Assembly: GCA_900319035.1 (NCBI GenBank)
Contig: ONMU01000013.1
Span: 1-53,986 of the forward strand
Origin: an uncultured Bacteroidales bacterium
GTDB lineage: Bacteria; Bacteroidota; Bacteroidia; Bacteroidales; Paludibacteraceae
Reading direction: 5' to 3'
DNA: 53,986 nucleotides
Shown here piece by piece: positions 11,880-38,374 of this stretch (within the stretch, counting starts at the first letter, position 1; the number at the start of each line of letters is the position of its first letter). The notes beneath the pieces were generated by a model. It was not told the DNA's origin, did not search any database, and was given only the letters and a program-made list of their open reading frames with translations. The translations under genes were made by a program, and so were the position numbers.

Positions 11880-12193
11880 AAAAAGCGCAGACTTCGCTAT
11901 TGCTCATCTACGCACAAGGGCCTTCGAACTTGCCCACCTAGTCAAATAAACAACAATGAAACCTACGCCGATATGACAAAACCTACGCCGATATGACAAC
12001 ACGCCTGCATGGAAACAGCAGGGCGAGTATAATAGTCATACCCGTAGGCGTAATTGTTACTTTGATTTTGACTAGGAATTACTAAAAGTGTTCGAAGCTT
12101 TTTGTGCGTCAAATACAAAGCGTCAATAAACGCCATTCAATATGTAAAGAACCCACATCCGTCCACCGTGTAAAACGGTACCGGCGTAAATTC
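11880..12193 (-). ncRNA. Structured leader RNA or ncRNA, copy 1
   Basis: The transcript is predicted to start near 12193, below the promoter at 12199-12230. About 60 nt on lies a small hairpin, GGCGTTTATTGACGCTT, identical in copy 2. A long irregular hairpin follows, with pairs 12102-12109 to 11910-11917, 12090-12097 to 11922-11929 and 12067-12076 to 11937-11946, plus an apical hairpin near 12003-12024. At the 3' end, 11907-11913 pairs with 11885-11891 before five T residues, a terminator that shares bases with the closing stem. Blocks GGGTATG and CATATCGG also match copy 2. It is either an attenuator leader of the FHA operon or an independent sRNA. It is not tmRNA or RNase P. Confidence 0.65.
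11961..12000. repeat. 20-bp tandem duplication inside structured RNA copy 1
   Basis: Two units of ACCTACGCCGATATGACAAA, the second ending in C, lie head to tail. The unit corresponds to the CATATCGG block shared with RNA copy 2, where it occurs once. Either unit can pair with the opposite arm near 12035-12054. Confidence 0.9.
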
Positions 12194-12198
12194 GGCTG

Positions 12199-12230
12199 CA
12201 AAATTAGTAATAATTTTTGATATGTGCAAA
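12199..12230 (-). promoter_or_regulatory. Bacteroidetes promoter of structured RNA copy 1
   Basis: Minus strand: TTTG at 12230-12227, exactly 20 nt, then TAATTTTG at 12206-12199. These are the -33 and -7 boxes of the Bacteroidetes primary sigma factor. The spacer contains TATCAAAAA. Confidence 0.8.
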
Positions 12231-12407
12231 TAAAAAGTGAAAATTTCGAAAAAAATAATTATTTATTCGTGTTGTGGGGATATATTTAGACAAAAACATA
12301 AAAAACAATGTTTGTTTTTGTGTGCTTTAACTTTTTCTTTGGTCAAAAATTATCAACAATTATAGACAATTCTCTTATTTGAGATAAATGGGATTGCGAT
12401 TAGTATA

Positions 12408-12435
12408 CAAAAAAACGCCGGTCAATAGACCGACG
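12408..12435 (-). terminator. Terminator of the YafQ toxin-antitoxin operon
   Basis: On the minus strand an 8-bp stem (CGTCGGTC with GACCGGCG, loop TATT) is directly followed by seven T residues. It lies about 40 nt after the toxin stop codon. Confidence 0.85.
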
Positions 12436-12472
12436 GTATGTGATAGAAAAAGTTTGTCTAAAGAGCATATGA

Positions 12473-12760
12473 TTATCTCTTACCTAATAAATCGGAATGA
12501 GTACCGGTATCCAACAATAATAGAATTAACTCTGTATCGTTCTGATCCCAAACAAGCAACCAATTGGGTTCAATATGACATTCCCAATATCCACACCACT
12601 TCCTGCCGACCAACTTATGAGGATTATATTCTTTGGGAAGAGTACCAGTTTCCGCCAATAATCGAATGACATGCTCTAACTTAGAGATGTCCAATCCGCG
12701 TTTCTTACATAATTTATATGAACGCTTGAATTGTCCAGAGTAACGCAAGGTATATTTCAT
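12473..12760 (-). CDS. YafQ-family mRNA interferase toxin (type II TA)
   Basis: 95 aa, the normal size for a RelE/YafQ toxin. The family pattern is clear: PHKLVGRKW, then GYWECHIEPNWLLVW and a C-terminal TGTHSDLL. The conserved His and Asp residues are those used for ribosome-dependent mRNA cleavage in YafQ. It overlaps the antitoxin gene by 4 nt (ATGA), so the two are translationally coupled. A strong terminator follows. The pair is likely an accessory module beside the signalling cluster. Confidence 0.9.
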   Translation of the reverse strand: MKYTLRYSGQFKRSYKLCKKRGLDISKLEHVIRLLAETGTLPKEYNPHKLVGRKWCGYWECHIEPNWLLVWDQNDTELILLLLDTGTHSDLLGKR

Positions 12761-12969
12761 GCTTCTAATTGTGCCATTAGATCTTCTACACTATCAGCTT
12801 GATATACACGTCCGGCACGGACATCTTCTATCGCTCGTTCCAAACTACCTCTCTTATGTGATGCACGAACGGTAGAGACTTGCCAACCCATATTACGTGA
12901 TTGACGGCGTAGGAATGCAGCATCTCCTACCGGCAAAGTAATCTGTAATGTTCTCATTGTAGTTTCCAT
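12757..12969 (-). CDS. Antitoxin partner of YafQ toxin
   Basis: 70 aa. A short N-terminal strand (MRTLQITLPV), probably the DNA-binding dimer arm, precedes a helical middle (DAAFLRRQSRNMGW) and an acidic C-terminal helix (DSVEDLMAQLEA), as in small antitoxins. The start may be 12969 or the second ATG at 12957. A Shine-Dalgarno-like AAAGGAG stands 8 nt before the first ATG, which is unusual for Bacteroidetes and favours 12969. It normally binds the toxin and represses its own operon. The family (RelB-like or other) is not certain. Confidence 0.8.
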   Translation of the reverse strand: METTMRTLQITLPVGDAAFLRRQSRNMGWQVSTVRASHKRGSLERAIEDVRAGRVYQADSVEDLMAQLEA

Positions 12970-12994
12970 AAATCGCTCCTTTCATTTTGCGGTG

Positions 12995-13026
12995 CAAAAT
13001 TACAACTTTTTTTTGAATTGACCAAA
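12995..13026 (-). promoter_or_regulatory. Promoter of the toxin-antitoxin operon
   Basis: Minus strand TTTG at 13026-13023, 20 nt, then TAATTTTG at 13002-12995, with an A-tract spacer. The transcription start would be about 20 nt before the antitoxin ATG. Confidence 0.8.
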
Positions 13027-13126
13027 TATTTAGGTAAAAAAAGCAAACATTAGTATTTTTTGAGAGCTTTTGAACTTCAACACCTTATTTATACACGTGT
13101 ACGCGCGAGGTTGTGAGGGAAATATG

Positions 13127-13256
13127 GATTTGGACTAAAAACTCGGGTTTTTCTTCCAAATGTGGGGTAAAAAAAATAGATTTGGACAAAAAACTCATGT
13201 TTTTCTTCCAAATGTGGGGTAAAAAGTATAGATTTGGACAAAAAACATAAAAATAG
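13127..13256. repeat. 52-bp tandem repeat, about 2.5 units
   Basis: Units start at 13127, 13179 and 13231, a constant 52-bp period. Each begins GATTTGGAC followed by AAAAAC, and the two full units end CTTCCAAATGTGGGGTAAAAA. The third unit is cut short. The stretch lies in the 444-bp gene-free space between the TA promoter and the acyltransferase promoter, and no gene is supported in it. Confidence 0.9.
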
Positions 13257-13346
13257 AGGTAACACATCAAGCTCACGGACGAACGGGCACTAATCCTATG
13301 GGGCATATGCAAATAAACGGAATTTTTAATAAAAATATACCGAATA

Positions 13347-13378
13347 CTTGCGCATTTCAAAAAAAAGCAGTACCTTTG
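13347..13378 (+). promoter_or_regulatory. Promoter of the acyltransferase gene
   Basis: CTTG at 13347-13350, 20 nt including an A-tract and GCAG, then TACCTTTG at 13371-13378. Reading this stretch as protein gives a false N-terminal extension, so the ATG at 13414 is preferred. Confidence 0.85.
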
Positions 13379-13413
13379 CAGCAGTTTTTAATTACCCGCT
13401 AAAAAGCAGCAGC

Positions 13414-14061
13414 ATGAATAGATATACATTTGGGAAGATTTGCAAATTCTTCTTTCATCTGCACTACGATATACAGGTGACAGGAGAGGAGTTATTGAGG
13501 GACAAGAAGATCCATCTCGTCATGCCGAACCATACGGCATACATAGATCCGTTGATTTTATTCAGCGAAGAATGGTGGTTGCCTATTCGTCCGATGACGG
13601 ATGAGTTGTTCATGCGGCATTGGCTGTTCGGACGCGTACTGCGTATGGCAGACGCAATCGAAGTGCCGGACCTGCAGAAGAGCGCCATGAGCCGGGAAGA
13701 AGGTGTAGCCGCCGCCAGTCAGCTGAGCCGGATTGCTATTGACAGTTTGGCAGAAGGCAAAGAGGTTTGTTTCTACCCTTCCGGACACGTGAAGACGGTG
13801 GATAAAGAGATCATCGGTAACCGGCGTATGGCATATGAAGTATGCCGTGAGTTACCTGAAGGCGTGCGCGTGATCCTATGTAGAATGCGCGGGTTAGAGA
13901 GCAGCCGTTTCTCGAAGCTCAAACCTAAGAAATGGAAATGGAGACGCACGGTGACCCTGCATTTCGAAGACCATACGGACGATGTGCTCCAATGGGCTCA
14001 GACCTTAGACAGACGAGCTTTTAATGCGAAACTCGAGGAATGGTACAACCAAAGTCGTTAG
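13414..14061 (+). CDS. plsC: 1-acyl-sn-glycerol-3-phosphate acyltransferase family protein
   Basis: 215 aa from ATG at 13414. The catalytic HxxxxD motif is NHTAYID (His40, Asp45), with a glycerolipid-binding-like FYPSGHVKT near residue 140. Such enzymes transfer an acyl chain to lysophosphatidic acid or a similar lipid at the inner membrane. The upstream in-frame ATG at 13348 is rejected because it lies within the promoter. The gene is monocistronic, with its own promoter and a terminator at 14119-14142. Related family members acylate other substrates, so the symbol is tentative. Confidence 0.8.
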   Translation: MNRYTFGKICKFFFHLHYDIQVTGEELLRDKKIHLVMPNHTAYIDPLILFSEEWWLPIRPMTDELFMRHWLFGRVLRMADAIEVPDLQKSAMSREEGVAAASQLSRIAIDSLAEGKEVCFYPSGHVKTVDKEIIGNRRMAYEVCRELPEGVRVILCRMRGLESSRFSKLKPKKWKWRRTVTLHFEDHTDDVLQWAQTLDRRAFNAKLEEWYNQSR

Positions 14062-14303
14062 TCGTTAGTCGTTAGTCGATTGACAAAAGGCCAAAGGCTA
14101 AAGGAGAAATGGAAAGGGACTGCCAAAATGGCAGTTCTTTTTTGTTTGGCGCGAGGTTTGTAGTATCTTAAATGTACAATGTACAATGCACAATGAACAA
14201 AGCGTCTTAGTGACTTAGGTACAAAACATAAAGAACCGCATGTATTCTAAAAGTTTGAACCATGCTCCAAAAGCCCTTTGTAAATTGTAAATTGTAAATT
14301 TTG
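14053..14303. repeat. Spacer filled with short-period direct repeats
   Basis: This stretch between the acyltransferase and clpB holds several unrelated short-period repeats: GTCGTTA repeated three to four times (14053-14078), ATGTACA-type repeats (about 14172-14200) and TAAATTG repeats (about 14281-14300). The first overlaps the last codons of the acyltransferase gene. No further gene is visible. Confidence 0.8.
14119..14142 (+). terminator. Terminator of the acyltransferase gene
   Basis: A perfect 7-bp stem ACTGCCA/TGGCAGT with loop AAA is followed by TCTTTTTT. Confidence 0.85.
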
Positions 14304-14336
14304 AAATATGAATTATTAACTAAAACTACAATAACT

Positions 14337-16403
14337 ATGAACGCAACGAATCAAAACAATCAAAACGAAAACCTCAAGAAGTTCGCAATCAACCTTTGCG
14401 AGCGAGCAAAAGAGGGCAAATTAGATCCGGTCATCGGTCGTGATGACGAGATCAGGCGGGTTCTGCAGATCCTGAGCCGAAGAACGAAAAACAACCCTAT
14501 TCTGATTGGTGAACCGGGTGTGGGAAAGACTGCCATTGCGGAAGGTCTGGCACATCGTATCGTGCGCGGCGACGTACCGGAGAACCTGAAGAAAAAACAG
14601 ATCTACTCCCTCGATATGGGTGCGCTGATTGCCGGCGCTAAGTACCAAGGTGAGTTCGAGGAACGACTCAAAGGCGTCGTCAACGAAGTGGTAGCAGCTG
14701 CGGGTGAGATCATCCTGTTCATCGATGAGATACACACGCTCGTTGGAGCCGGTAAGAGTTCCGGCGCGATGGACGCAGCGAACATCCTGAAGCCTGCGTT
14801 GGCACGTGGTGACCTGAGGGCTATTGGTGCAACGACGTTGGATGAGTATCAGAAGTATTTTGAGACCGATAAAGCTTTGGAGCGTCGTTTCCAAAAGGTC
14901 ATGGTCGATGAGCCGGACGAGGCAGCGACGATCTCTATCCTTCGTGGTCTGAAAGAGCGTTATGAGACCCACCACAAAGTGCGTATCAAAGATGACGCTA
15001 TCATCTCCGCTGTGACCCTTTCTGCCCGATATATCACCGATCGTTTCTTGCCGGATAAGGCAATCGACCTGATCGATGAAGCCGCAGCCAAACTGCGTCT
15101 GGAAGTGGACTCCAAGCCGGAAGAGATCGACTCTCTCGACCGTCAGATCAAACAACTGGAGATCGAGCGCGAAGCCATCAAACGCGAGAAGAACGAAGCC
15201 AAGCTTGGCGAGATCGAGAAACAGCTCAAAGACCTCAAAGCCAAATCCGATGAGCTCAATGCCCGTTGGAACAAGGAGAAAGGTTACGTAGCTACTATCC
15301 AGAACGAGAAAGCGCGTATCGAGACCTTGAAACATCAGGCAGAGGTAGCCGAACGCGAAGGCGATTACGGCAAGGTAGCGGAGATCCGTTACAGTCAGAT
15401 TCCGGCTTCGGAAGCGAACATCAAAGCTGCGCAAGACACCCTGCATCAATTGGGCACCGAGTCCCTCATTAAAGAGGAAGTCGATGAAGACGATATCGCC
15501 GAGGTAGTAGCTCGTTGGACGGGTATTCCGGTAGCTAAGATGATGCAGTCGGAGCGCGATAAACTGCTTCATCTGGAGGAAGAACTTCACCAACGTATCA
15601 TCGGTCAAAACGAAGCTATCGAAGCGGTCAGCGACGCTATCCGTCGTAGCCGTGCAGGTCTCCAAGACCCGAAACGTCCTATCGGCAGTTTCATCTTCTT
15701 GGGTACGACCGGTGTCGGTAAGACCGAGTTGGCGAAAGCGTTGGCAGACTACCTCTTCGATGACGAGAATATGATCACGCGTATCGATATGAGTGAGTAT
15801 CAGGAGAAGTTCAGTGCGACCCGACTCATCGGTGCGCCTCCGGGATACGTGGGTTACGATGAAGGCGGTCAGTTGACCGAAGCGATCCGTAGAAAACCGT
15901 ACTCGGTAGTGCTCTTCGATGAGATCGAGAAAGCGCATCCGGATGTGTTCAACGTCCTGCTGCAAGTACTCGATGACGGACGTCTGACGGATAACAAAGG
16001 ACGTGTCGTGAACTTCAAGAACACCTTGATCATCATGACCTCTAACCTCACGGAAGAGCAACTCCGCGCACAAGTCCGCCCAGAGTTTATCAACCGTATT
16101 GATGAGATCATCCACTTCACGGAGTTGACCGAGGATAATATTCAATCGATTGTATCGCTCCAACTGAAACGCATTCACAAGATGCTTGAGGGGCAAGGAA
16201 TCGACCTGCGTGTCTCGGACGATGCTATCCGGTATATCGCCAAAGAGGGTTACGACCCGCAATTCGGTGCACGTCCTGTCAAGAGAGCGCTCCAACGCCT
16301 TGTCCTCAACGAGTTGAGTAAGCAGATCATCGGCGGTAAGGTCGATAGCCGCAAACCGGTCATCATCGAGCTCCGCGACGGCGAGCTGCAATTCCGGAAC
16401 TAA
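14337..16403 (+). CDS. clpB: ClpB-type disaggregase lacking the N-terminal domain
   Basis: 688 aa from ATG at 14337; a TTG 36 nt upstream is less likely. ClpB refolds aggregated proteins with DnaK. The first AAA+ ring has [13 protein letters not shown] and the pore-loop YQGEFEERL. The full ClpB M-domain coiled coil (about 275-395) is present, and the second ring has [18 protein letters not shown] and FDEIEKAH. Normal ClpB is about 860 residues; here the Clp_N repeats (about 150 residues) are absent and nothing upstream encodes them. A second gap of roughly 25 residues lies between MTSNL and RPEFINRID. The gene converges on the permease gene, overlapping by 4 bp. Confidence 0.93.
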
Positions 16404-17371
16404 CGGTTCTTGAGGATGATCCAGATGATCACCGGAGCACCAAAGAGGGCGGAGACGGTAGAGACAGGCAAGGGGTAGATGAAGAGCGAGCACAGCAGAT
16501 CGCAGACCAGCAAGAGGCAAGCACCAATGAGTGCCGAAGCCGGAAGGGTGATGCGATGATTAGAAGTTCCGAAGATACCCCTTGCTATATGCGGCACCGC
16601 CACACCAATAAAAGCTATCGGTCCGCAGAACGCGGTGACACCACCGGCTAAGAGCCCCGTAGCCAAGACGATATAGAGCCGCGTGCGCTCAACATGAATG
16701 CCTAAGCCCCTTGCGTAATCTTCTCCCAAAAGAAGACCGTTCAGGGGCTTAAGTGCTAATAAGGTGAAGAGCGTACCCACCACCAAAACAGGCACTAACA
16801 TCTGCATGTCACTCCACCCCACACTACTGAGCGAGCCGAGTGTCCAGACGATGAAGAGCTTGAGGGCATCGGGGTTTGCGAAGTTCTGCAAGAGAGAGAC
16901 CAGCGCTCCGGCTATTGAGCCAAACATCAAACCCACAATCAACAGGCTCACATTACTCGTTACCCGTTTGCTAACCGCCAAGACGAGCAGCAAGACCAAG
17001 GTAGCACCGATGACGGCGGCAAGAGGCAAACCTATCGTTGAAAGTTGAAAGTTGAAAGTTGAAAGGACACCTCCTATCATCGTCAGAAGCGCAACTCCGA
17101 GACTTGCGCCGGAAGAGATACCAAGGGTATATGGTCCTGCAAGGGGATTACGGAAGAGGGTCTGCATCATCAGACCGGAGACAGACAGAGCAGCTCCAGC
17201 CAAGATAGCAGTCAGCGCTTTAGGGAAACGAATCGCATGAACGATCTGTTGCTCCATCGGATTGAGGTCGCCAAAAGGCCAAAGCCAGATAGTGCCGCTA
17301 CAGACATCCAAACCGAAAAGAAGCACCAAAAATACCCCTAAAAAGCCAAATATACACAGATTTTTACTCAT
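16400..17371 (-). CDS. FecCD/BtuC-family ABC transporter permease (orphan)
   Basis: 323 aa from ATG at 17371. About nine hydrophobic helices and the family motifs [15 protein letters not shown]-like [25 protein letters not shown] and [10 protein letters not shown] mark the FecCD permease of iron-siderophore or cobalamin importers. The longer frame to 17410 would run through the promoter at 17380-17411, so the inner start is preferred and the mRNA is nearly leaderless. No ATPase or binding-protein gene is nearby. Residues STFNFQLST (about 17037-17066) come from a GTTGAAA direct repeat inserted in frame. Confidence 0.9.
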
Positions 17372-17379
17372 TTCGGGCA

Positions 17380-17427
17380 CAAAGGTACACTTTTTTTTGC
17401 ATATTTCCAAAAAAAGCAGTAATTTTG
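17380..17427. promoter_or_regulatory. Overlapping divergent promoters for the FecCD permease and panB
   Basis: Minus strand: TTTG at 17411-17408, 20 nt, TACCTTTG at 17387-17380 (permease). Plus strand: TTTG at 17396-17399, 20 nt, TAATTTTG at 17420-17427 (panB). The spacers overlap, so the two promoters probably exclude each other. Confidence 0.85.
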
Positions 17428-17448
17428 TGCGTTTTTTTGAAAAAAGTT

Positions 17449-18264
17449 ATGAGCGTACATGTACAAAATACCCGAATGACGACATCCAAACTGCGTCAGA
17501 TGAAGGCAAACGGCGAGAAGATCGCCATGTTAACGAGTTATGATTTCACCCTTGCTTCGCTTGTGGACGAGGCGGGTGTGGATATGATCCTTGTGGGCGA
17601 CAGTGCCAGCAATGTAGTATGCGGCAATTCATACACGCTGCCTATTACCGTGGACGAGATGATTTTCCTGACCAAGGGAGTAGTCCGCGCAGCGCAACAC
17701 TCTTTGGTAGTTTGCGACATGCCTTTCGGCAGTTACCAAGTGAGCGAAGAGGAGGCAGTTCGTAATGCTATCAAGATCCTAAAAGAGAGCGGTTGCGATG
17801 CGGTTAAGCTCGAAGGAGGTGAGGAAATCCTTCCTGCCATCCGCCATATGATCCAAGCCGGAGTTCCGGTGATGGGTCATTTAGGACTGACTCCGCAAAG
17901 CGTAAACCAGTTCGGCGGCTACGGGCTGCGTGCCAAAGAAGAAGCCGAAGCAGAGAAACTGCTGCACGATGCAAAACTGCTGGACGAAGCCGGATGTTTC
18001 TCCATCGTCTTAGAGAAGATCCCTGCTGCGTTGGCAAAAAGAGTAACGGAAGCAGTGTCCTGCCCTGTGATCGGCATCGGAGCCGGTAACGGTTGTGACG
18101 GTCAGGTGCTCGTGCTGCACGACATGCTCGGTCTCAACCAAGGCTTCAAACCTAAGTTCCTCCGTCATTTTGCATCCCTTGGCGTACAAGTGAAAGAAGC
18201 GGTGGAGAACTACGTAGAAGCCGTAAAAGACAGTAGCTTCCCTTCGGCTGAGGAAAGCTACTGA
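17449..18264 (+). CDS. panB: Ketopantoate hydroxymethyltransferase
   Basis: 271 aa from ATG at 17449. It converts 2-ketoisovalerate plus methylene-THF to ketopantoate, the first step of pantothenate and CoA synthesis. The family pattern is strong: MLTSYDFTLASLVDEAGVDMILVGDS split over residues 22-47, LPITVDEM, VCDMPFGSY, VKLEGG, MGHLGLTPQSVNQFGGY, IGIGAGNGCDGQVLVLHD. The catalytic Glu lies in SIVLEKIP. Starts further upstream would run into the promoter. No other pantothenate gene is in the window. Confidence 0.96.
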   Translation: MSVHVQNTRMTTSKLRQMKANGEKIAMLTSYDFTLASLVDEAGVDMILVGDSASNVVCGNSYTLPITVDEMIFLTKGVVRAAQHSLVVCDMPFGSYQVSEEEAVRNAIKILKESGCDAVKLEGGEEILPAIRHMIQAGVPVMGHLGLTPQSVNQFGGYGLRAKEEAEAEKLLHDAKLLDEAGCFSIVLEKIPAALAKRVTEAVSCPVIGIGAGNGCDGQVLVLHDMLGLNQGFKPKFLRHFASLGVQVKEAVENYVEAVKDSSFPSAEESY

Positions 18265-18357
18265 AAAGTCGATGGTCGATGGACAGATTTCAGAAGTCAG
18301 ATTTCAGAAGTCAGATTTCAGATTTCAGATTTCAGAATTCAGAAGTCAGAAGTTAGA
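18264..18357. repeat. Short-period repeat block after panB
   Basis: GTCGATG occurs twice, followed by repeated AGATTTC and AGAAGTC units (TCAGAAGTCAGATTTCAG type). The block reaches the last codons of the deacetylase gene at 18353. No terminator with a clear stem was found here. Confidence 0.85.
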
Positions 18358-18982
18358 GGGCTGCGAGTTCGTAGCCTTCTTTTTGTAACCATTCGATCGC
18401 CTTCGGGAGAACTTCCAACATCCTTTCGTTCGACTTGATGGAGTCGTGGAAATTGATGAGCGAACCCGGGCGGGTCTGACGCTTGATCTGGTCGAACATC
18501 TCTTCAGGCGTACGACTCTTATTATAATCGCGCGTGAGGACATCCCAAAGATAGATAGTATAACCTCTGTTGACCAAAGCCTTGCGTTGCCACCACCAAG
18601 TCCTGCCATAAGGCGGACGGAAAATCTTACGCCGGTTAACCGGAGCACAGGGCTGACGGTTCACCACCTCTTCCCATTTTTCCACATTCGCCAGATAAGT
18701 CTTTGTGCGGAAATTCCAACCCTTCATATGGTTATAGGTGTGGTTCGCAATGGTGTGTCCTCCTGCTACTACCTGCGCAAAGATATCCGGGTGTTTGTCT
18801 ATATTCTCACCGACCATGAAAAAGGTTGCCTTGACGTTATAACGCGCCAAGATCTCCAGCACTTTCGGCGTCACCTCGGGTATAGGACCATCATCAAAGG
18901 TGAGATACACCGCTGTACCCGTACGGCATACACCGCACGGATACAGACGCTGCAATAGATTCTTGATTGCTCCCATTACCAT
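18353..18982 (-). CDS. NodB-type polysaccharide deacetylase
   Basis: 209 aa, mostly a NodB homology domain. Motifs in order: TFDDGP (metal and catalytic Asp), HTYNH (two metal His), RPPYGR (catalytic groove), LWDVLTRDY and LINFHDS. Such enzymes remove N-acetyl groups from peptidoglycan, chitin-like or capsule sugars. A hydrophobic N-terminus or lipobox is not evident, so the location is uncertain. It overlaps the ROK gene by 7 nt and ends the operon that begins at 24561. With a sugar kinase and sugar transporter upstream, an amino-sugar connection is possible. Confidence 0.88.
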   Translation of the reverse strand: MVMGAIKNLLQRLYPCGVCRTGTAVYLTFDDGPIPEVTPKVLEILARYNVKATFFMVGENIDKHPDIFAQVVAGGHTIANHTYNHMKGWNFRTKTYLANVEKWEEVVNRQPCAPVNRRKIFRPPYGRTWWWQRKALVNRGYTIYLWDVLTRDYNKSRTPEEMFDQIKRQTRPGSLINFHDSIKSNERMLEVLPKAIEWLQKEGYELAAL

Positions 18983-19932: not shown

Positions 19933-19951
19933 GATATAATGTATTTAAAAA

Positions 19952-30396: not shown

Positions 30397-30460
30397 AAAT
30401 TTAATGAACAATGTTTATCGCTTAGGAAACACAATTCACATCGTTTTTCAAAAGCGGGTG

Positions 30461-30492: not shown

Positions 30493-30519
30493 TATTTTTG
30501 CAAAAAAATGCAAAAAAAA

Positions 30520-31146: not shown

Positions 31147-31206
31147 TGTTCCTTTGTACATCTCCTTTAACGCTCCTTTGTACGTTGTACATTGTTCCTT
31201 TGTACA
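31127..31206. repeat. Duplicated GTAC-rich repeat between pfp and the TPR-like gene
   Basis: About 37 bp with CGCTCCTTTGTACGTTGTAC occurs twice (about 31127 and 31170), each copy ending TTCCTTTGTACAT. The block contains the likely start codon of the TPR-like gene and fills the gap after pfp. Confidence 0.85.
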
Positions 31207-32862
31207 TTAATTTTTGCCGCGCTCCAAGAGCAAGGTACGGGTCGGTTGATCGCAGACCTCGGTCGGACCGTAGTACTGGATCGGACCCGGGTAGATGTAA
31301 CTGGTGTTCGCGTCAGCCCACTCTGCACGATGAGCCTGCAGGTACTTGAAGGGCGCACCGTCGAGCTCTACGAGGGCTTTCTGGATAACCGGTTTCATCT
31401 TACCGTTACGCTTCTCCATATTCATCATCATAGTGATAGGCACACCACCGGCTAACCACTCTGCTGCGGGTTTGGTGAGGTTGCGCACGAGCGACATGTA
31501 ACCGGTCTTGCCGGCAGCGATGAGGTGCGTAGCGTTCACGCCGATCGAATAGCAGTAGTCAGCATCGAAGTTAGATGGCATAGCACAACGTCCTTCGTAG
31601 CCGAAGAAGTGGTTGAGAGCAGAGAACTTGCCTTTGTACTCGCCGTTAGCTTTGAGGACAGCCAGACGTTTCTGAACCATCTCAATGAGCAGTTTCTCGG
31701 TCTCGATCTGCGAAACCATAACGTTTCCGTGCGGGTCGCGGTCAAGGGTGAGCTGTTTAGCGATACCCTTCGGCAGCGAACGGAAGAGCTCGCAGGAAGC
31801 CGGAGTAAGCATCGATTTGACGTACTCACGTTTCGCATCATCGCCGTCAAGCGAGGTGAACTCCTCGTTGTTAGCGAGCATGTCGTTGAGCTCTTGGATG
31901 AGGACACGCATAGCCGGAATGAACTCAATCAGACCCTCCGGAATGAGGATAGTACCGAAGTTCAGACCTGCGTTAGCACGGTCCACGATCACTTTGACGA
32001 TGTCCTCAACGATGTCATTGAGGGTCATCTTCTTCGCCTCAACCTCCTCGGAGATCAAGCAGATATTCGGCTGACTCTGGAGTGCACATTCGAGGGCGAT
32101 ATGGCTTGCCGAACGACCCATGAGGCGGATGAAGTGCCAGTATTTCTTCGCGGAGTTAGCGTCACGCTGGATGTTACCGATGAGCTCGGCGTACGTCTTA
32201 CAAGCGGTGTCGAAACCGAAAGAGGTCTCGATCATCTCGTTCTTGAGGTCGCCGTCGATAGTCTTCGGGCAGCCGATGACTTGGATGCCGCATTGTTTCT
32301 GGAGATAGTACTCAGCAAGTACGCAAGCGTTGGTGTTCGAGTCGTCACCACCGATGATGACAACTGCCTTGATACCGAGTTTTTTGCAGATCTCGATACC
32401 ATTATCGAACTGCCAAGTCTCCTCCAGTTTGGTACGACCGGAACCGATGATATCGAAACCACCGGTGTTGCGGTACTCGTCGATGATAGCCGCTGTGAGC
32501 TCCTGATACTTGCCATCAATAAGACCCGAAGGACCTCCGAGGAAGCCGTACAGCTTATTGTTCGGATTCAGCGCTTTGAGGCCATCATAGAGACCGGAGA
32601 TGACGTTGTGACCGCCGGGAGCTTGACCTCCGGAGAGGATTACACCCACGTTGAACGGTTCGTCACAATGGTTCTTGCCGGTGGTGGGTTCCATGGTAAT
32701 GATCGGCAGACCGTAAGTGTTCGGGAAGAGTTTCTGGATTTCTTCTTGGTCTGCAACCGACTGTGTTTTCTCGCCTTCTACAAGACGAACCGCGCCCTGC
32801 AATGCTACCGGCATCTTCGGCTGATAGCTCTGACGCGCAATCTGTAATGGGGATTTTTGCAT
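31207..32862 (-). CDS. pfp: Pyrophosphate-dependent 6-phosphofructokinase
   Basis: 551 aa, the long PPi-PFK type. It interconverts fructose 6-phosphate and fructose 1,6-bisphosphate using pyrophosphate, so it works in both glycolysis and gluconeogenesis. The PPi-type signature GGDDS at residues 171-175 (ATP enzymes have GGDGS) and PKTIDGDL with the catalytic Asp are clear. GGQAPGGHN and [11 protein letters not shown] are also present. No typical promoter lies directly upstream; a GGGTTAGT repeat and the toxin-like operon precede it. Confidence 0.96.
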
Positions 32863-32882
32863 AAGATTAGTATTTTTATTTT

Positions 32883-32937
32883 AACGATTTAACGAATTAA
32901 CGAATTAGTGGGTTAGTGGGTTAGTGGATTAGTGGGT
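32883..32937. repeat. Short-period repeat before pfp
   Basis: AACGAATT occurs twice and GGGTTAGT-type units occur four times in a row. The block fills the gap between the 50-aa gene and pfp and touches the stop codon of the former. Confidence 0.85.
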
Positions 32938-33090
32938 TTAAATAGCAACCGTGAACGGATCCACGTATTTCACCTGACCATTCTCGCTGAAGATAAGTGG
33001 CTGATTGTCACGGCGGTGTTGCTCCACAACCTTTTTATAGGATTGCTTGAGTCCAATACTCAATATTGCCTCTAATTCACGTTCGCTCAT
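32938..33090 (-). CDS. Small 50-aa protein, candidate antitoxin of the zeta-like kinase
   Basis: 50 aa. It starts MSERELEAILSIGLKQSYKK, a basic amphipathic helix, and ends with a short strand-like part (QPLIFSENGQVKYVDPF). The start codon overlaps the stop of the zeta-like gene (ATGA, 33087-33090), so translation is coupled. Position and size fit a partner or antitoxin gene, but no known antitoxin family was recognised. The order toxin first, small gene second is the reverse of classical epsilon-zeta. Confidence 0.75.
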   Translation of the reverse strand: MSERELEAILSIGLKQSYKKVVEQHRRDNQPLIFSENGQVKYVDPFTVAI

Positions 33091-33665
33091 ATATTTTGTT
33101 TTAATTGGTTCCACATTTCTTGTTCGCGTATCTGCAAACTTCCATCGACACCACCGCTTTGGGCTACTAAAATGGCCTCTCCGTGCGCATTATTATATAT
33201 CAGCACACTATCGCATATAGGCATATACAGATTGAGCAAATTATATATCCCGCGTTTGAACCGACGGCGGATATCTTGTTCGGGGATATTATGTCCTCCA
33301 TTGCTCACACGCTGCGCAACACGTTGAATAGCTTGTTCCTCGTTTTCCAAGTAAAAATAAATCAGATGTACCTTGTATCCCAAGTTCTGAGCTCGATGCA
33401 CAAGATGCACATACGAGCGAGTAGCAAGCGTTGTTTCGATGGCAAAATCGACTTTTTGCGGCAGTAGTTCATCTATCCTCTGCAACATGATTCTGCCTGC
33501 TTGGAAGGCAACTGATTCTGAGGCAAAAGGAGACAAACCACGTGCTATCTCATCTGCATTCACAAAATTGAGGCAATGCAACACATCGGGCAATAAACTG
33601 AATGATGCCGTTGTTTTGCCGGCTCCATTTGGTCCGGCGATGATATATAAATTTGCGTGTTGCAT
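33087..33665 (-). CDS. Zeta-toxin-like P-loop kinase
   Basis: 192 aa from ATG at 33665; a longer frame to 33719 runs through the promoter. A Walker A motif GPNGAGKTT lies at residues 11-19. Further zeta-like features are NADEIARGLSPF, RIDELL, FAIETTLATRSYV and IYFYLENEEQAIQRVAQRV with arginines for phosphate contact. Zeta toxins phosphorylate UDP-N-acetylglucosamine and block wall synthesis; stand-alone homologues also exist. It overlaps a 50-aa gene by 4 nt. It is probably a TA-like or phosphorylation module. Confidence 0.85.
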   Translation of the reverse strand: MQHANLYIIAGPNGAGKTTASFSLLPDVLHCLNFVNADEIARGLSPFASESVAFQAGRIMLQRIDELLPQKVDFAIETTLATRSYVHLVHRAQNLGYKVHLIYFYLENEEQAIQRVAQRVSNGGHNIPEQDIRRRFKRGIYNLLNLYMPICDSVLIYNNAHGEAILVAQSGGVDGSLQIREQEMWNQLKQNI

Positions 33666-33688
33666 GTGCTTCAAACCAATTTTGCCTG

Positions 33689-33720
33689 CAAAATTACTGC
33701 TTTTTTTTGACATATGCAAG
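33689..33720 (-). promoter_or_regulatory. Promoter of the zeta-like operon
   Basis: Minus strand CTTG at 33720-33717, 20 nt with A8 and GCAG, then TAATTTTG at 33696-33689. It may also serve pfp by read-through. Confidence 0.8.
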
Positions 33721-34020
33721 AGTCGCGGCTTTTTTGTTGCATTTTTGCATCATTTTAGCATAGATTAAGCGTGTATTTAGCATGTAATTAGCTGTCATTC
33801 CCGTTCGCATTACGTTACCATCTCGTTACCATTGCGGACGTGTACGTACGGTTTGGGGTGTTTCGAAGAGCCGTTTGAATCGGTTTCCAGTCGCGTGGCA
33901 GGTCCGTTAATGAATAAGGAATGAATAAGTAATATATAAGGAATAACTAAAGATTTAATTGATATGTATTATATACTACGTATATAATACTATACAGAGA
34001 TAAGTTAATAAAAAAATGAC
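33721..34020. other. Gene-free stretch upstream of the zeta-like operon
   Basis: No gene is supported here. It holds two CGTTACCAT units near 33815-33835, two GGAATGAATAAG-like units near 33915-33930 and AT-rich sequence. No promoter pair or terminator was found. Confidence 0.6.
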
Positions 34021-34021
34021 A

Positions 34022-34240
34022 TTGCACTATTTGCACTATTTGCACTTTGGAACGAGAAAGTGCAGAAAGTGCAGAAAGTGCAAAGCAAAAAAATGATGTG
34101 GCATAAGTGGCAGAAAAGTGGGTGTTGAAGGATAATTTATGCCACTTATGCCATTTATGCCAGTGCAAATTTTTACTATTTTTAGCGCTCATGGTATAGG
34201 AATTCTACAGCCACATCCGCGAAATACTCGCGAAAGTGGC
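34022..34240. repeat. Iteron-like 9-bp repeats and nested inverted repeats
   Basis: TGCACTATT-type 9-bp units (34022-34048) are followed by AAAGTGCAG units in inverse sense (about 34055-34084). GGCATAAGTGG (34100-34110) faces CCACTTATGCC (about 34142-34152), which is itself repeated. A nested palindrome follows (about 34180-34238): TAGCGC/GCGCTA outside, then CCAC/GTGG, then CGCG/CGCG. Short open frames here only reflect the repeats. A recombination, replication or REP-like site is possible. Confidence 0.75.
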
Positions 34241-34271
34241 GCTAAAAGGTACGAAAAAACTTCAATTGCAT

Positions 34272-34305
34272 AACAAGCGGGCAACTCATTGAGCACCCGC
34301 TTGTT
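34272..34305 (-). terminator. Probable terminator of the BspA-like gene
   Basis: A 10-bp perfect stem (AACAAGCGGG with CCCGCTTGTT) is present. The T-run after it is short on the minus strand, so it may act as a bidirectional or RNA-stabilising hairpin. Confidence 0.6.
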
Positions 34306-34338
34306 TGATTTGTACAATGTACTTTGTTCCTTTGTACT

Positions 34339-37300
34339 TTACTTGACTTCTTGTCCTTGAAGGGTATAGGTTTTGTTGCCACGGAGGATGAATATCTGAC
34401 CATCACGGAGGATCTTGGTACATTGTACACTGTTCACTTGTACATCTTCTATGGCTGTCGGTATTTCACCGGTAGTAGTGAATGATCCGGATTTGGTATC
34501 TAATGTATTGTTATTTGCATCTTTTGCCACAATAGAGTAGCCATATTGTGTGTTATTGGTCAAACCAGTTATAGTAAATCTGAATCCTTCGGCTTGTTGC
34601 TGTTTCGTCATTTCGCGTGCAGGTGCAAAAGCAATTCCTATCAACTGACCTTGGGCATTGAAAGTTAATGTGCAAACTGTTTGGTCATCTTTTGTAATCG
34701 TTATTTCGTATGTTTCTGCTTCGTTTACTATAGGCCAAACTATCTCCGCTGAATTTTCATAAGGTGTGACAACAACGTCCTCGGTCGGTTCGGTAACTGT
34801 TTCCGCATTTTTAACCTGCACATCAAATTCTCCCCAATAGGTATCACGGAGATAGGCACGCTGACGACCTTCCGGCACATAAAGATAGATGTACTGTTTA
34901 TTGCCTACATTAGCAAACGTATTCTCAGTAATCGTTGGAACGGTAGTTGCATAGCAGGTAATATCATCAAAATTCTTGCATTCAGCAAAGGCATAATCAC
35001 CAATTGAGGCAACACTTCCACCGATTACCAAATGATTGATAGTGCTCATTCCATAGAAAGCGCTATCTCCAACAGCCGTAACTTCATTGCCTATAATGAG
35101 ATTTTGCATTTGTGTAGGTGCTTCAACTCCATACGTAAAGTTGGAAGTCAAGGCTCCGCTACCGCTAATGGTTAATGTTTTTGTCTCATCATCGTAAGTC
35201 CATGTAAGTTGGTTATCTTCGCCGCAAGCTCCGCTATTATCAACTGCAAACTCCGCTGTAAAGGTAGTATCTTGTGTTATAATGAAAGCACGCGGATTGT
35301 CGGTATTTCCATCGCTCCATTGGGTGAAATGACAGCCGTTATTTGAAATGGCGGTTAGTGTTACTTCTTGTAAGTATTCAGCAGAACTACAGCCCTTACG
35401 AAGAATGGAAATTTCATCGAACATCGGATTCCAATCATACCCCTCTCGATATAAATATATTGAAGATAAACTTTCTACACCAGCCGGAAGTACTACGATG
35501 AGGTCACCGGTAATGCCTTTCGCATCTTCTGGGTATGAATAAATCAATTTGTCAGTATTAGGAGTTGCGTATAATTTCGGGCCTCCAGAGATGGTCGCTG
35601 GTGTCGTAATGTGGATTACGAACAAGTCCCCTTCACGCAATGAACCGGAAGCAAATTTTATCCCAAAATATTTTCCGTCATTAAGTTTTGTATTTCCGTA
35701 AGAGAAATTTGTAGAAACACTCCCAGGAATGTATCCGGTTACAGTTCTCCCGTTTGTTGTTGCTTTCATCAGCACTAATGCCTCGTTACCTTCATTTATT
35801 GATACACTTCCTCTATTTGGATAGTTAATAGTCGTTGACAGCACGTATATGTCAGGTGCAAACTCGGCAGTAAGTGCGGTATCTTGAGTCAACACAACTG
35901 TACGTGGATTGTCGGTGTTACCATCCGACCATTGTTTAAAATGATAGTGGTTATTGGGTATCGCTTCATAAGTATGGGAACTTAAATAGTCATAACTACC
36001 ATTTTCTCCAACAAAACTTCCCATTGTTCCATCACAACTAACATTAATGTTATATTGATTAAGTGCAAACTCAGCAATAAATGTTGTATCTTGTGATAAA
36101 GTAAAAATGCGCGGATTATCTGTATTTCCATCACTCCATCTAGTAAAATGGTAACCATAGTTAGGAGTGGCAGTTAGTGTAGTGTCATCACATAGCGTAG
36201 TTGGCACGTGAATACTACCCATTACTATGTCATTTACATTACCTGTTACTATATATCCGAGTGGTATGTATTGAATTTGGGAGGCATAACTTGACCATGC
36301 GGATTTGTATGCATCTAATGTGCCACAAGGAACAATTATTGATGTTAAATTGTCATCGAAACAGTTTCCAAAATCTTCATTTAAAATTGGAGGTGTTTCT
36401 GCTTTTATTGTCACAGAGGTCAGACCACTGCAACCTCTAAAAGCACTATATCCTATACTTGTGACGCTGTTGGGGATGGTTATTGCTGTTAGTAGGGGCA
36501 TCCCAGAACAAAGAGTAGGTGGTATTAGTTCTACCTCATCGCCAAACGTAAAGGACTCAACTTGACTGCCAAAACTAGTTGCATTACAATGCTTTGCGTT
36601 CCATACAACAGATGTTATACCGCTGCAACCATCGAAAGCATAACTTCCAAAACTTGTGAGGCTATATGGAATTGTCACAGAGGTCAAATTGTTGCAATTC
36701 TGGAAAGCATAATTTCCAATGCTTGTGACGCTGTTGGGAATCGGTACAGAGGTTAATCCGCTGCAATTCTGGAAAGCATAATTTCCAATGCTTGTGACGC
36801 TGTTGGGAATCGTTAGAGAGGTTAATCCGCTGCAATTCTGGAAAGCATAAATTCCAATGCTTGTGACGCTGTTGGGAATCGTTACAGAGGTTAATCCGCT
36901 GCAATCAGAGAAAGCATAACCTGCGATAGATTCAATGCTATCCGGAATTAAATATGCACCCGAATAAGAAGTTGGTAGATAAGCAAAAACATGTGCATGT
37001 AATACAGGAGATGTTAAACTGCTACAACCATTGAAAGCAGCATCTCCAATGCTGGTAACGCTACTAGGGATAGTTACAGAGATCAGACCGCGGCAATATC
37101 GGAAAGCCCCCCATCCAATGCTAGTGACACTATATGTAACATGATTATAGATAACAGACGATGGGATTACAACCGAGCCGGTATATTCATTTGAGTAGGA
37201 ATATTCGCTTGCGCCTCGGTAAGTAACAGATGCGGTGCGGCTACTATAGTCAAAATTGTAATAAATGCCATCTACTTGCGTGTCCGATGCGAAAAGAATT

Positions 37301-37350
37301 CCTGCGCCGATTATGAGCGCGAAGAGAGAAGTAAAAATTTTTGTTTTCAT
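34339..37350 (-). CDS. BspA-like leucine-rich repeat surface protein
   Basis: 1003 aa. Signal peptide (MKTKIFTSLFALIIG), then LRR_5/BspA repeats of 23 residues (TSIGNYAFQNCSGLTSVTIP type, about residues 60-340). Several InlB-like repeats follow (GYHFTRWSDGNTDNPR, three near copies), then a late LRR block (about 770-830), a fibronectin-III-like domain (about 870-970) and a C-terminal tag (TKILRDGQIFIL, TYTLQGQEVK). BspA proteins bind host proteins or other bacteria at the surface. Part of the LRR region repeats exactly at DNA level (36694-36900). It may be transcribed from the promoter of RNA copy 2 through the 212-aa gene, 25 nt upstream. Confidence 0.92.
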   Translation of the reverse strand: MKTKIFTSLFALIIGAGILFASDTQVDGIYYNFDYSSRTASVTYRGASEYSYSNEYTGSVVIPSSVIYNHVTYSVTSIGWGAFRYCRGLISVTIPSSVTSIGDAAFNGCSSLTSPVLHAHVFAYLPTSYSGAYLIPDSIESIAGYAFSDCSGLTSVTIPNSVTSIGIYAFQNCSGLTSLTIPNSVTSIGNYAFQNCSGLTSVPIPNSVTSIGNYAFQNCNNLTSVTIPYSLTSFGSYAFDGCSGITSVVWNAKHCNATSFGSQVESFTFGDEVELIPPTLCSGMPLLTAITIPNSVTSIGYSAFRGCSGLTSVTIKAETPPILNEDFGNCFDDNLTSIIVPCGTLDAYKSAWSSYASQIQYIPLGYIVTGNVNDIVMGSIHVPTTLCDDTTLTATPNYGYHFTRWSDGNTDNPRIFTLSQDTTFIAEFALNQYNINVSCDGTMGSFVGENGSYDYLSSHTYEAIPNNHYHFKQWSDGNTDNPRTVVLTQDTALTAEFAPDIYVLSTTINYPNRGSVSINEGNEALVLMKATTNGRTVTGYIPGSVSTNFSYGNTKLNDGKYFGIKFASGSLREGDLFVIHITTPATISGGPKLYATPNTDKLIYSYPEDAKGITGDLIVVLPAGVESLSSIYLYREGYDWNPMFDEISILRKGCSSAEYLQEVTLTAISNNGCHFTQWSDGNTDNPRAFIITQDTTFTAEFAVDNSGACGEDNQLTWTYDDETKTLTISGSGALTSNFTYGVEAPTQMQNLIIGNEVTAVGDSAFYGMSTINHLVIGGSVASIGDYAFAECKNFDDITCYATTVPTITENTFANVGNKQYIYLYVPEGRQRAYLRDTYWGEFDVQVKNAETVTEPTEDVVVTPYENSAEIVWPIVNEAETYEITITKDDQTVCTLTFNAQGQLIGIAFAPAREMTKQQQAEGFRFTITGLTNNTQYGYSIVAKDANNNTLDTKSGSFTTTGEIPTAIEDVQVNSVQCTKILRDGQIFILRGNKTYTLQGQEVK
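36694..36900. repeat. 69-bp near-identical tandem repeats in the LRR gene
   Basis: Units start at 36694, 36763 and 36832 and encode 23-residue LRR units. They differ at only a few bases, such as CGGTACAGAG against CGTTAGAGAG, so they expanded recently. Copy number could vary between strains by slippage or recombination. Confidence 0.9.
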
Positions 37351-37375
37351 AGATTTGTTTTATTAGTGTTAAACA

Positions 37376-38014
37376 TTATTGTTTTTTCTTCTTTCCTTCC
37401 TCAAAAGCATCATATACACCATGCGCTACCTCTTCAATTGCTTCTGCAAGATGCTCATCAATTATGCCTTTATTCTGAAGGTTGTAGGTCGTAATTGATA
37501 ATATCGCAATCATAGCGTAAAAAGTCAATACACTTTTCTTAAATTGAATTAATTGCTCTTTATATTGGGCATCTATGTCAATATTAAGCAGATCGCAAAG
37601 AGTAGGATCAAATGTGGGAGCGCAACCATACAAGACGGAGATTATCCGTGAGATGAGTTCTGATGACTGATGTTTATACGGAAGAATCGCTTGTATGTCA
37701 TTATAGAGTTGCGAGACTTTCTCCACGTAGTCCTCATCCGTCAAATGCCACTCAAACGGTTCGAAATGGGTATTCCTATACTTAATAAGGTTTTCGAAAG
37801 CGGCAGATTGATTGGCTGTCATTCTCTTACAAGAATGCCCATGTCTGCACAGATATTCATAGAGTATATCTCTACCTTCAGCGGTGGGGATACTCTCTCT
37901 TCTTCTAAAATACTGCGCTGTTTTCGCGTAGTCTGTCTCTGGGAATAAGAAGGGTTCTGTTTGGAGTAATTTGTAGAACTGCTCCAAATAAGGATTTAAC
38001 ATTTGGCCTTCCAT
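37376..38014 (-). CDS. Unknown 212-aa protein downstream of structured RNA copy 2
   Basis: 212 aa; not recognised. It is mainly helical, with charged segments at the N-terminus and one hydrophobic helix at about residues 160-175 (VLTFYAMIAILSITTYNL). It contains CRHGHSCKR but no clear zinc site. The C-terminus is acidic then basic (AIEEVAHGVYDAFEEGKKKKQ). It may be a small membrane-associated protein. The start is 55 nt after the terminator hairpin of RNA copy 2, and the BspA gene follows by 25 nt. No separate promoter was found for either gene. Confidence 0.7.
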   Translation of the reverse strand: MEGQMLNPYLEQFYKLLQTEPFLFPETDYAKTAQYFRRRESIPTAEGRDILYEYLCRHGHSCKRMTANQSAAFENLIKYRNTHFEPFEWHLTDEDYVEKVSQLYNDIQAILPYKHQSSELISRIISVLYGCAPTFDPTLCDLLNIDIDAQYKEQLIQFKKSVLTFYAMIAILSITTYNLQNKGIIDEHLAEAIEEVAHGVYDAFEEGKKKKQ

Positions 38015-38068
38015 AGTTCAATCATACATTTTCCTATGGATTCCAGCATAGGGGATTAATAATAAGAA

Positions 38069-38374
38069 AAGCGTGGAACCTTATTTCACGCTTATTCTCT
38101 ACATCGAGGTTCCGGAAATGACCCTACACACAAGAACAAACAATAACGTCCACGCCCGATATGCTTAACCCTCCCGCCCTATGAGGGCGCGAACGGATAC
38201 TAACATACCCACGGAACGTCTATTGCACTATCTTGCTTTGGGCGTGTGAAATTTTCCGGATTTCGATGTACCAAAACAAGCGTCAATAAACGCCTTTTAA
38301 ATACTATGTGCTCACTTTTTTACGCTGCTGAGCTCAGCGAAATCACGATACGATTATTGTTCCGCACGCAATTT
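38069..38374 (-). ncRNA. Structured leader RNA or ncRNA, copy 2
   Basis: The transcript is predicted to start near 38374, below the promoter at 38380-38411. The 5' end can fold as GCACGCAA/TTGCGTGC. About 80 nt on lies GGCGTTTATTGACGCTT (38294-38278), identical to copy 1. The long hairpin pairs 38263-38269 with 38101-38107 and 38253-38260 with 38111-38118, has a GGGCGTG/CACGCCC or alternative ACGT.TATTG pairing, and an apical perfect 6-bp hairpin at 38175-38189. GGGTATG and CATATCGG blocks match copy 1. A 7-bp terminator stem (38069-38093, AAGCGTG/CACGCTT) ends it, 55 nt before the 212-aa gene. Confidence 0.65.

Follow-up and report, generated by a model that had tools for sequence, protein, structure and literature searches.

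Attenuators and riboswitch expression platforms that use intrinsic terminators are known from the trp, T-box, magnesium, and similar leaders. The put RNA of phage HK022, EAR, and the LoaP-associated leaders also act in cis, controlling termination of accessory or surface operons, and surface and glycan genes in other bacteria use processive antitermination systems. Loop-loop or inter-hairpin pairing of pre-folded hairpins occurs in natural kissing-loop RNAs, synthetic paranemic motifs, and the GOLLD, ROOL, and OLE RNAs. Bacteroidales-1 (RF01693) and 6S RNA resemble the RNA described here in taxonomic order, in being hairpin-rich, and in length. Among candidate structured RNAs of human microbiomes, the Bacteroidetes RNAs HMP2_4205, HMP2_1065, and HMP2_1032 are palindromic in character, carry predicted terminators, and are described near TPR, RuvA, or TonB genes (PMC8040213). 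The family reported below may be identical to one of the 3161 candidates covered there. We recognised no description of it in the open-licence PMC literature, and it is apparently undescribed so far.

The window analysed here is the whole stretch of 53,986 nt from an uncultured Bacteroidales bacterium (contig ONMU01000013.1). The first-pass annotation had noted the same layout at two places on its minus strand, and this was borne out: both copies have a promoter with a 20-nt spacer, an identical 17-mer, a strong fold, a T-run, and then an ORF. We take the promoter, TTTG-N20-TAnnTTTG in both copies, to be of the Bacteroidetes type. The parts are as follows.

38380 to 38411, minus strand: copy 2 promoter, TTTG-N20-TAnnTTTG (motif search)
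38295 to 38373, minus strand: copy 2 5′ leader, structured (start set by promoter position, pairing by eye)
38278 to 38294, minus strand: copy 2 17-mer, GGCGTTTATTGACGCTT (exact sequence)
38232 to 38280, minus strand: copy 2 hairpin HP1, a:a′, with inner stem GAAA/UUUC (covariation, partner permutation)
38269 to 38263, minus strand: copy 2 H2-5′, within HP1
38260 to 38253, minus strand: copy 2 H3-5′, within HP1
38141 to 38225, minus strand: copy 2 central hairpin c:c′, whose apical stem varies (covariation, permutation, folding)
38155 to 38149, minus strand: copy 2 c′ core GCGTGGA, complementary to t
38090 to 38141, minus strand: copy 2 hairpin HP3, b:b′, with inner stem GGGT/ACCT (covariation, partner permutation)
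38118 to 38111, minus strand: copy 2 H3-3′, within HP3
38107 to 38101, minus strand: copy 2 H2-3′, within HP3
38067 to 38078, minus strand: copy 2 terminator strand t (TTCCACGC) and T-run (sequence, folding)
38070 to 38067, minus strand: copy 2 T-run alone
12199 to 12230, minus strand: copy 1 promoter, TTTG-N20-TAnnTTTG (motif search)
12118 to 12134, minus strand: copy 1 17-mer, GGCGTTTATTGACGCTT, as in copy 2 (exact sequence)
12060 to 12120, minus strand: copy 1 HP1, CTTTGTATTTGAC / GTCAAAATCAAAG (pairing by eye)
12107 to 12102, minus strand: copy 1 H2-5′, within HP1
12097 to 12091, minus strand: copy 1 H3-5′, within HP1
11910 to 12132, minus strand: copy 1 hit of the family covariance model (model search)
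11912 to 11928, minus strand: copy 1 H3-3′ (11928 to 11922) and H2-3′ (11917 to 11912), complementary to its own HP1
11880 to 11890, minus strand: copy 1 terminator strand t (CTGCGC), complementary to c′ GCGTAG, and T-run
11884 to 11880, minus strand: copy 1 T-run alone

In copy 2, HP1 and HP3 also bear H4-5′ and H4-3′, respectively, and the 17-mer contains a small hairpin, GGCGU/ACGCU, together with the start of strand a. The leader, previously described as 60 to 80 nt long, is in copy 2 itself structured: a module CGCUG-loop-CAGCG-UAAAAAA-GUGAG resembles an H-type pseudoknot when paired by eye. Folds of 320 nt gave z scores of -4.86 and -5.43, with 0 of 100 shuffles as good for each copy. 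On the window, the family model scored the two copies, both of which were among its 38 input sequences, at 163.3 and 84.5 bits, and the next match at 10.1 bits. Neither copy has an exact TAnnTTTG box between T-run and ATG, in keeping with the earlier statement that no other promoter is visible before the downstream genes.

A covariance-model search, one of the checks proposed by the first-pass annotation, identified a large family. The two copies it had reported are real but the number was wrong, since the genome carries 15. The model matched 222 of 300 genomes of the same taxonomic family (probably Paludibacteraceae) and 73 of 295 genomes of the order; elsewhere in the class Bacteroidia, matches were short, weaker, and mostly single copies. 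Elements are roughly 250 to 320 nt long and reach about 26 per genome. A second proposed check, against Rfam, gave no match above a curated cutoff: copy 1 had none at E values up to 5, and copy 2 had just three, all far below cutoff. No curated riboswitch or cis-regulatory family matched the element, and a DUF805b match (RF02914; L175:762-796) lies outside it. The genome does match RF01693, with 34.5 bits against a curated cutoff of 60, but at a separate locus (C31:5049-5263), which sets the element apart from Bacteroidales-1 and 6S RNA. On these scans and the separate locus we rejected 6S RNA or another Rfam family, and the 6S-like shape offered earlier as an alternative is not supported.

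Selection on RNA structure, argued previously from compensating changes, is supported by very strong covariation and copy-specific complementarity. The complementarity lies in the local hairpins HP1 and HP3 and in three helices joining them, H2, H3, and H4. For each of a:a′, b:b′, H2, H3, and H4, pairing with the copy's own partner was better than in all 2,000 partner permutations. The single continuous long hairpin drawn earlier was not recovered: its pairings a:b′ and a′:b are not copy specific (343 and 498 of 2,000 permutations were equally good), and the changes favour two local hairpins with helices between them. We therefore rejected the long hairpin as the sole fold. In an unsupervised scan of 64 aligned copies, the top seven column pairs all belonged to H2 or H3; HP1 (36-52) and HP3 (207-253 and 205-255) ranked lower, amid off-register and other pairs. 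In the structure comprising HP1, HP3, H2, H3, and the central hairpin, 93.5% of cells pair (shuffled, 82.6%; slid, 40 to 52%), double changes occur in 37 of 51 pairs (shuffled mean, 24.9), and double-change cells number 400 versus 124. The inner stems of the hairpins pair in 90.9 to 93.4% of cells. Among 100 model hits, all seven H2 positions paired (counting G-U) in 93, the H2 7-mers took 83 different sequences, and H3 was paired in 96. These pair counts lean upward because 21 loci were left out before the 64-copy alignment and because the 100 hits were chosen by a model that itself contains H2 and H3. Pattern-based extraction yielded 91 of 105 elements, 84 of them unique; in 12 of the 84 it took the terminator for the 3′ arm, and these were scored as misses. 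Copies L019, L025, L044, L060, L066, L114, and L121 have mismatched arms, as if recombined; because their source is metagenome assemblies, they may have been wrongly assembled.

Strand t, ahead of the T-run, is complementary to c′ on the 3′ side of the central hairpin; t and c compete for c′. The two possible partners overlap in the GG of GCGUGGAC. For 100 unique copies, none of 2,000 permutations paired t as well as with its own c′, and for 115 of 123 copies the c′:t score was 18.68, compared with 17.80 for the best of 5,000 permutations. Pairs that changed together include GCGUGGGC:GCCCGCGC, GCGUAGGC:GCCUGCGC, GGUGUGGGG:UCCCACACC, and AUGGGCG:CGUCCAU; the script did not find c′:t in L290 and L297. 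A local terminator hairpin was present in 87 of 163 copies, versus 12 of 456 control windows, and its arm extends into b′ in all 87; the scan found none in the other 76. As in attenuators, a GC-rich stem stands directly before the U-run, formed by c′:t and, in those 87 copies, by the local hairpin as well, and mutually exclusive pairing of the terminator strands is conserved. Forced folds gave -99.1 (read-through-like) versus -88.9 (terminator) kcal/mol for copy 2 and -89.2 versus -86.7 kcal/mol for copy 1.

From these sequence comparisons, we consider it probable that the family is a cis-acting leader RNA that conditionally terminates transcription by exchanging a terminator state for an interlocked one. 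RNA polymerase would initiate at the element's own promoter and synthesise HP1, the central hairpin c:c′, HP3, strand t, and the U-run in that order. In the terminator state, t:c′ would enclose HP3 immediately 5′ of the U-run, assisted in about half of the copies by a local stem with the end of b′. In the read-through state, H2, H3, and H4 would hold HP1 and HP3 together, c:c′ would be paired, and t would be free; since a:b′ and a′:b are not copy specific, support for this state comes from H2, H3, H4, and c:c′. H2 and H3 make up a matching pair private to each copy, and because they are copy specific, the interlocked state would form within one RNA rather than between paralogous leaders. The exchange, the conditional termination, and which state is the default are what we infer from these pairings. 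The signal could come from pseudoknots in the 5′ leader, from a NusG-type factor acting on the conserved GGCGUUUAUUGACGC, or from the speed of the polymerase. The homologues, the copy-specific pairing, and the lack of an Rfam match agree with the family of regulatory leaders proposed earlier; the sensor role suggested with it may also hold, although no ligand or signal turned up. The family shares with attenuators a promoter, a structured leader, mutually exclusive helices in which the terminator strand takes part, a U-run, and a gene soon after. It differs in having no riboswitch or T-box match in Rfam, many paralogues per genome, unrelated genes, and copy-specific segments joining two hairpins.

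A bolder reading of the same sequences, possible but doubtful in our judgement, is that the leader folds as a naturally occurring paranemic RNA, whose docking, and with it read-through, would be confined to the gene concerned or could be triggered in trans by an RNA bearing the matching code. The pre-folded hairpins would dock side by side with their own stems still closed, through two internal-loop exchanges (H2 and H4) and a loop-loop helix (H3), and the H2/H3 barcode would provide every leader in a cell, of which there may be about 26, with an address of its own. A paranemic (PX-like) fold calls for two hairpins closed at the base and near the loop that cross-pair over about half a turn at internal loops and loops. 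The copy specificity of a:a′, b:b′, and H2 to H4 and the fitting lengths are consistent with this, although simultaneous pairing and a switch look alike in these data. Known kissing-loop and paranemic RNAs differ, in that this family pairs within one leader, has hypervariable segments, and adds a terminator. The architecture would lend itself to studying strand exchange and paranemic pairing in a natural RNA. The copy-specific paired 7-mers may insulate paralogues from one another, serve as addresses for RNAs acting in trans, or simply have drifted. Insulation, which we infer as the cause of the barcode differences, is unproven because genomes do not keep their H2 barcodes distinct: H2 is identical in 1.1% of 719 pairs from one genome and in 0.46% of 3286 pairs from different genomes.

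Conditional termination must also be weighed against a stand-alone, trans-acting sRNA, 6S-like or other, that ends at the U-run and leaves the downstream gene incidental or reached by leak-through. A plain terminated sRNA would likewise have a terminator strand and a U-run, and the own promoter, compact fold, length, and multiple paralogues would suit one. We nevertheless regard it as unlikely: the Rfam results speak against 6S, competition between t and c for c′ is needless in a plain sRNA, and 44 of 58 loci have a same-strand ORF of at least 80 aa that begins between +215 and +385. On the divergent side at similar distance, 6 of 58 loci have such an ORF; random positions in the same loci have a qualifying downstream ATG in 497 of 1,160 cases, a high rate because internal ATGs were counted. 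By analogy with put, EAR, and LoaP, polymerase could instead be modified to pass this and later terminators, either by the interlocked RNA itself or by a protein bound to the conserved GGCGUUUAUUGACGC hairpin. Such processive antitermination would fit cis-acting structured leaders in front of surface and glycan genes and a conserved 5′ hairpin and loop, a conservation that is partly a selection effect because copies were found or chosen by that motif. Rfam scans showed no relation to those RNAs, whose architecture differs, and the family has a terminator strand of its own; we think this explanation quite improbable. Least credible is a DNA-level element, in which recombination or strand copying at an imperfect palindrome made the arms complementary by template switching. 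The highly identical 17-mer and the mismatched-arm copies would suit it, yet a:a′ and b:b′ covary as well, conserved noncomplementary segments lie between H2, H3, and H4 that palindrome repair should erase, and promoter and terminator motifs exceed controls (strict promoter motif, 74 of 157 copies versus 4 of 149 controls).

Genes that follow the element often encode exported or surface proteins, most commonly of the BspA LRR type (LRR_5, 17 of 106 and 19 of 68 in two sets), and some are restriction or glycan genes. A leader so widespread in one family, present in many paralogues and frequently ahead of such genes, would give these bacteria a widely shared level of control over the surface molecules they display. 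Restriction-type neighbours had raised the suspicion of a defence-only leader, which we dropped because LRR_5 proteins outnumber restriction and methylase proteins (about 4 per set). Carriage by phages or plasmids was also rejected: copy 2, the sole copy tested, had no blastn match in either, and none of 34 viral contigs with the 16-mer exceeded a model score of 25.4 bits, most matching little past the 16-mer. In the window, the T-run ends about 84 nt before the ATG of a 216-aa ORF in copy 1 and about 53 nt before that of a 212-aa ORF in copy 2. The genes are as follows.

37376 to 38014, minus strand: 212-aa ORF after copy 2, without a Pfam match
34339 to 37350, minus strand: 1003-aa BspA-type LRR protein (LRR_5), next gene after the 212-aa ORF
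5080 to 11796, minus strand: run of five genes after copy 1

The run after copy 1 encodes two FHA proteins (216 and 515 aa), a PP2C protein (641 aa), a Ser/Thr kinase (269 aa), and an FHA-DUF4836 protein (576 aa).

The two copies in the window share one layout: promoter, 5′ leader, 17-mer, a 5′ hairpin (HP1, strands a:a′), a central hairpin (c:c′), a 3′ hairpin (HP3, b:b′), a strand t, a T-run and an ORF.

12230-11880, minus strand: copy 1, with promoter, leader, 17-mer, strong fold and T-run; followed by FHA, FHA, PP2C, Ser/Thr kinase and FHA-DUF4836 genes
38411-38067, minus strand: copy 2, with the same layout; followed by a 212-aa ORF without a Pfam match, then a BspA-type LRR protein gene

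Each copy has the promoter motif TTTG-N20-TAnnTTTG, and the 17-mer GGCGTTTATTGACGCTT is identical between them. Folding z-scores for the two copies were -4.86 and -5.43, and the T-run lies about 84 nt (copy 1) or 53 nt (copy 2) from the ORF. No Rfam family matched either copy at Rfam cut-offs. A permissive scan gave no match for copy 1 and three matches near copy 2, all far below cut-off.

The evidence for the element is comparative throughout, and most copies analysed come from metagenome assemblies. With up to two mismatches allowed, a search of the window's genome gave the 17-mer at five places and the backwards 17-mer at none; across the genus, the exact 17-mer was found in 25 of 61 genomes and the backwards one in 0 of 61. 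Scanning named genomes with GCGTTTATTGACGCTTG yielded at least 120 matching stretches. Among the matches listed, 70 of 80 were labelled as Bacteroidales or Bacteroidia, many being Paludibacteraceae of ruminants and horses, and 10 of 80 were labelled as unrelated organisms. One of these ten (L030, labelled Atopococcus) was judged from its sequence to be a real element and was kept for analysis; the other nine look like chance occurrences.

We then searched with R1, a covariance model from 38 copies. The element had been described as a two-copy RNA; the window's genome alone has 15 R1 matches, ten of them at 82 bits or more. In all five weaker matches, the arms of H2 and H3, two of the helices (H2, H3 and H4) joining HP1 to HP3, are complementary by eye. 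At E ≤ 0.001, with the window's own genome counted in, R1 matched 222 of 300 family genomes (28 of 33 genera) and 73 of 295 from the order; in samples drawn from the class and the phylum it matched 21 of 295 and 4 of 198, the latter four all being class members. At the family, order and class levels, at most eight candidates were scored per genome. Six genomes picked for high copy number gave 20, 18, 29, 14, 23 and 9 matches, some of them weak or opposite a stronger one; in the genome with the most, 26 reach at least 40 bits. Since 44 control loci with a chance 16- or 17-mer scored up to 25.4 bits (E 8.8e-5), R1 matches below about 30 bits are unsafe alone. Among 14 distant class loci inspected over their full length, H3 arms are complementary in 13 and H2 arms in 12 or 13 (L296 is partial); L295 has neither.

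Unsupervised covariation on A2, an alignment of 64 copies, placed only H2 or H3 column pairs in the top seven, followed by HP1 and HP3 pairs among off-register and unrelated pairs. Because A2 copies were found through the 17-mer, its conservation there is partly selection by choice. The structure tested on A2 (a:a′, inner stem 1, central hairpin, b:b′, inner stem 2, H2 and H3) paired 93.5% of cells, versus 82.6% when shuffled and 40-52% when slid. Double changes occurred in 37 of 51 pairs (shuffled mean, 24.9), with 400 double-change cells versus 124. One continuous long hairpin, the fold first proposed, would require a:b′ and a′:b; it paired 90.7% of A2 cells. Double-change cells numbered 1 for a:b′ and 3 for a′:b, 13 for a:a′ and 30 for b:b′. 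Permutation of A2 segments agreed with these counts: own-partner duplex energy beat all 2,000 permutations for H2, H3, H4, a:a′ and b:b′, and 343 (a:b′) and 498 (a′:b) of 2,000 were as good. The continuous hairpin was rejected as the only fold.

Before exclusions (105 copies, 91 extracted, 84 unique), own-partner energy was -17.97, versus -8.44 with other copies' partners, and the own partner ranked best in 57 of 84; many misses were extraction errors and seven were mismatched-arm copies. Among 100 R1 matches, 93 have H2 paired at 7/7 positions when G-U is allowed (83 distinct sequences) and 96 have H3 so paired (18 sequences); the shuffled-partner means were 3.80/7 and 5.14/7. These counts lean upward because the model that chose the matches contains H2 and H3 and because some matches are also A2 copies. 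The 5′ and 3′ barcodes (H2, H3 or both) do not match in L019, L025, L044, L060, L066, L114, L121 and L261; such copies look like joined arms of two copies and may reflect recombination or misassembly.

Strand t, which precedes the T-run, is complementary to c′ (-13.63 versus -11.67 kcal/mol; 0 of 2,000 permutations as good). When the set was widened to 115 copies, the t:c′ score was 18.68, versus 16.82 with other copies' t (best permutation, 17.80; shuffled t, 13.31), and t's partner fell for the most part at 0.85-0.89 along the middle region. Distant relatives have joint c′:t changes (GCGUGGGC:GCCCGCGC, GCGUAGGC:GCCUGCGC and GGUGUGGGG:UCCCACACC); our script did not find the pair in L290 and L297. 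Strand c′ has a second partner, c, and in the main type c′:t and c:c′ share just a few bases, so the two pairings may partly coexist. Of 163 copies, 87 have a simple local terminator hairpin, in every case extending into b′, versus 12 of 456 control windows. Forced folding put the terminator state above the best nested fold by 10.2 (copy 2) and 2.5 kcal/mol (copy 1), under an energy model of nested folds whose scoring does not extend to the pseudoknotted alternative. In copy 1, the c′ region is covered by a segment of about 20 nt that is duplicated in tandem (11999-11961, minus strand; TTGTCATATCGGCGTAGGT).

A same-strand ORF of at least 80 aa starts at +215 to +385 in 44 of 58 named loci with enough flank, and a divergent-side one is present in 6 of 58; random positions gave 497 of 1,160, a control inflated because internal ATGs count. 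The 106 downstream ORFs examined include 17 BspA-type LRR_5 proteins, 6 with DUF4988, 5 with type IX sorting tails, and one or two each of proteases, MBOAT, OmpH, restriction and methylase proteins. A crude heuristic, with no background rate set, gave a signal-like N terminus in 66 of 106. Among the matches listed, each PADLOC defence model matches 1 of 106. A further 68 ORFs include 19 LRR_5 proteins and 4 glycosyltransferases. Downstream of distant copies, eight of ten ORFs lack a Pfam match, and the other two encode a type III methylase and an SprB-repeat protein. At L175 (762-796), a DUF805b RNA (RF02914, an Rfam cis-regulatory family) lies between the element and its ORF.

Strand t, pairings that exclude one another and the element's position in cis are all consistent with a conditional terminator. 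The pairing between the hairpins can be read in two ways. The element may switch between two nested structures, {HP1, HP3, c′:t} and {H2, H3, H4, c:c′}. Alternatively, a:a′, b:b′ and the three joining helices H2, H3 and H4 may all be formed at once, docking the two hairpins paranemically; the lengths of H2 (5-8 nt) and H4 (3-13 nt) and, in A2, of the inner stems (about 4 pairs) and H3 (7-8 pairs) would allow this. A highly variable, nearly always matched barcode fits insulation of paralogues, but barcode avoidance among copies of one genome was not seen.

A short class of about 110-140 nt (L176-L180 in the window's genome, L280, L281 and L284-L297) is missing most of the central part but retains H2, H3 and, in most cases, c′:t. 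In L176 and L177, t (CGTCCAT) is a repeat of c. Unrelated sequence follows the 17-mer in L034, which has the promoter motif, and in L056, L078 and L111; these are possibly truncated elements.

The conserved 5′ hairpin could be a factor-binding site. By eye, within the 125 nt that precede the 17-mer, the leader contains one to three H-type pseudoknot-like modules (L007, L025, L084, L012 and others; 38295-38373 in the window), each with a CGCUG/CAGCG or CGUC/GACG stem, an A-rich linker and a loop-complementary strand (CACCG/CGGUG, CUCCG/CGGAG or CCUUG/CAAGG, for example). Such small modules are present in about a third of copies, and CAGCGTAAAAAAG, with at most two mismatches, occurs in 33 of 104 upstream regions.
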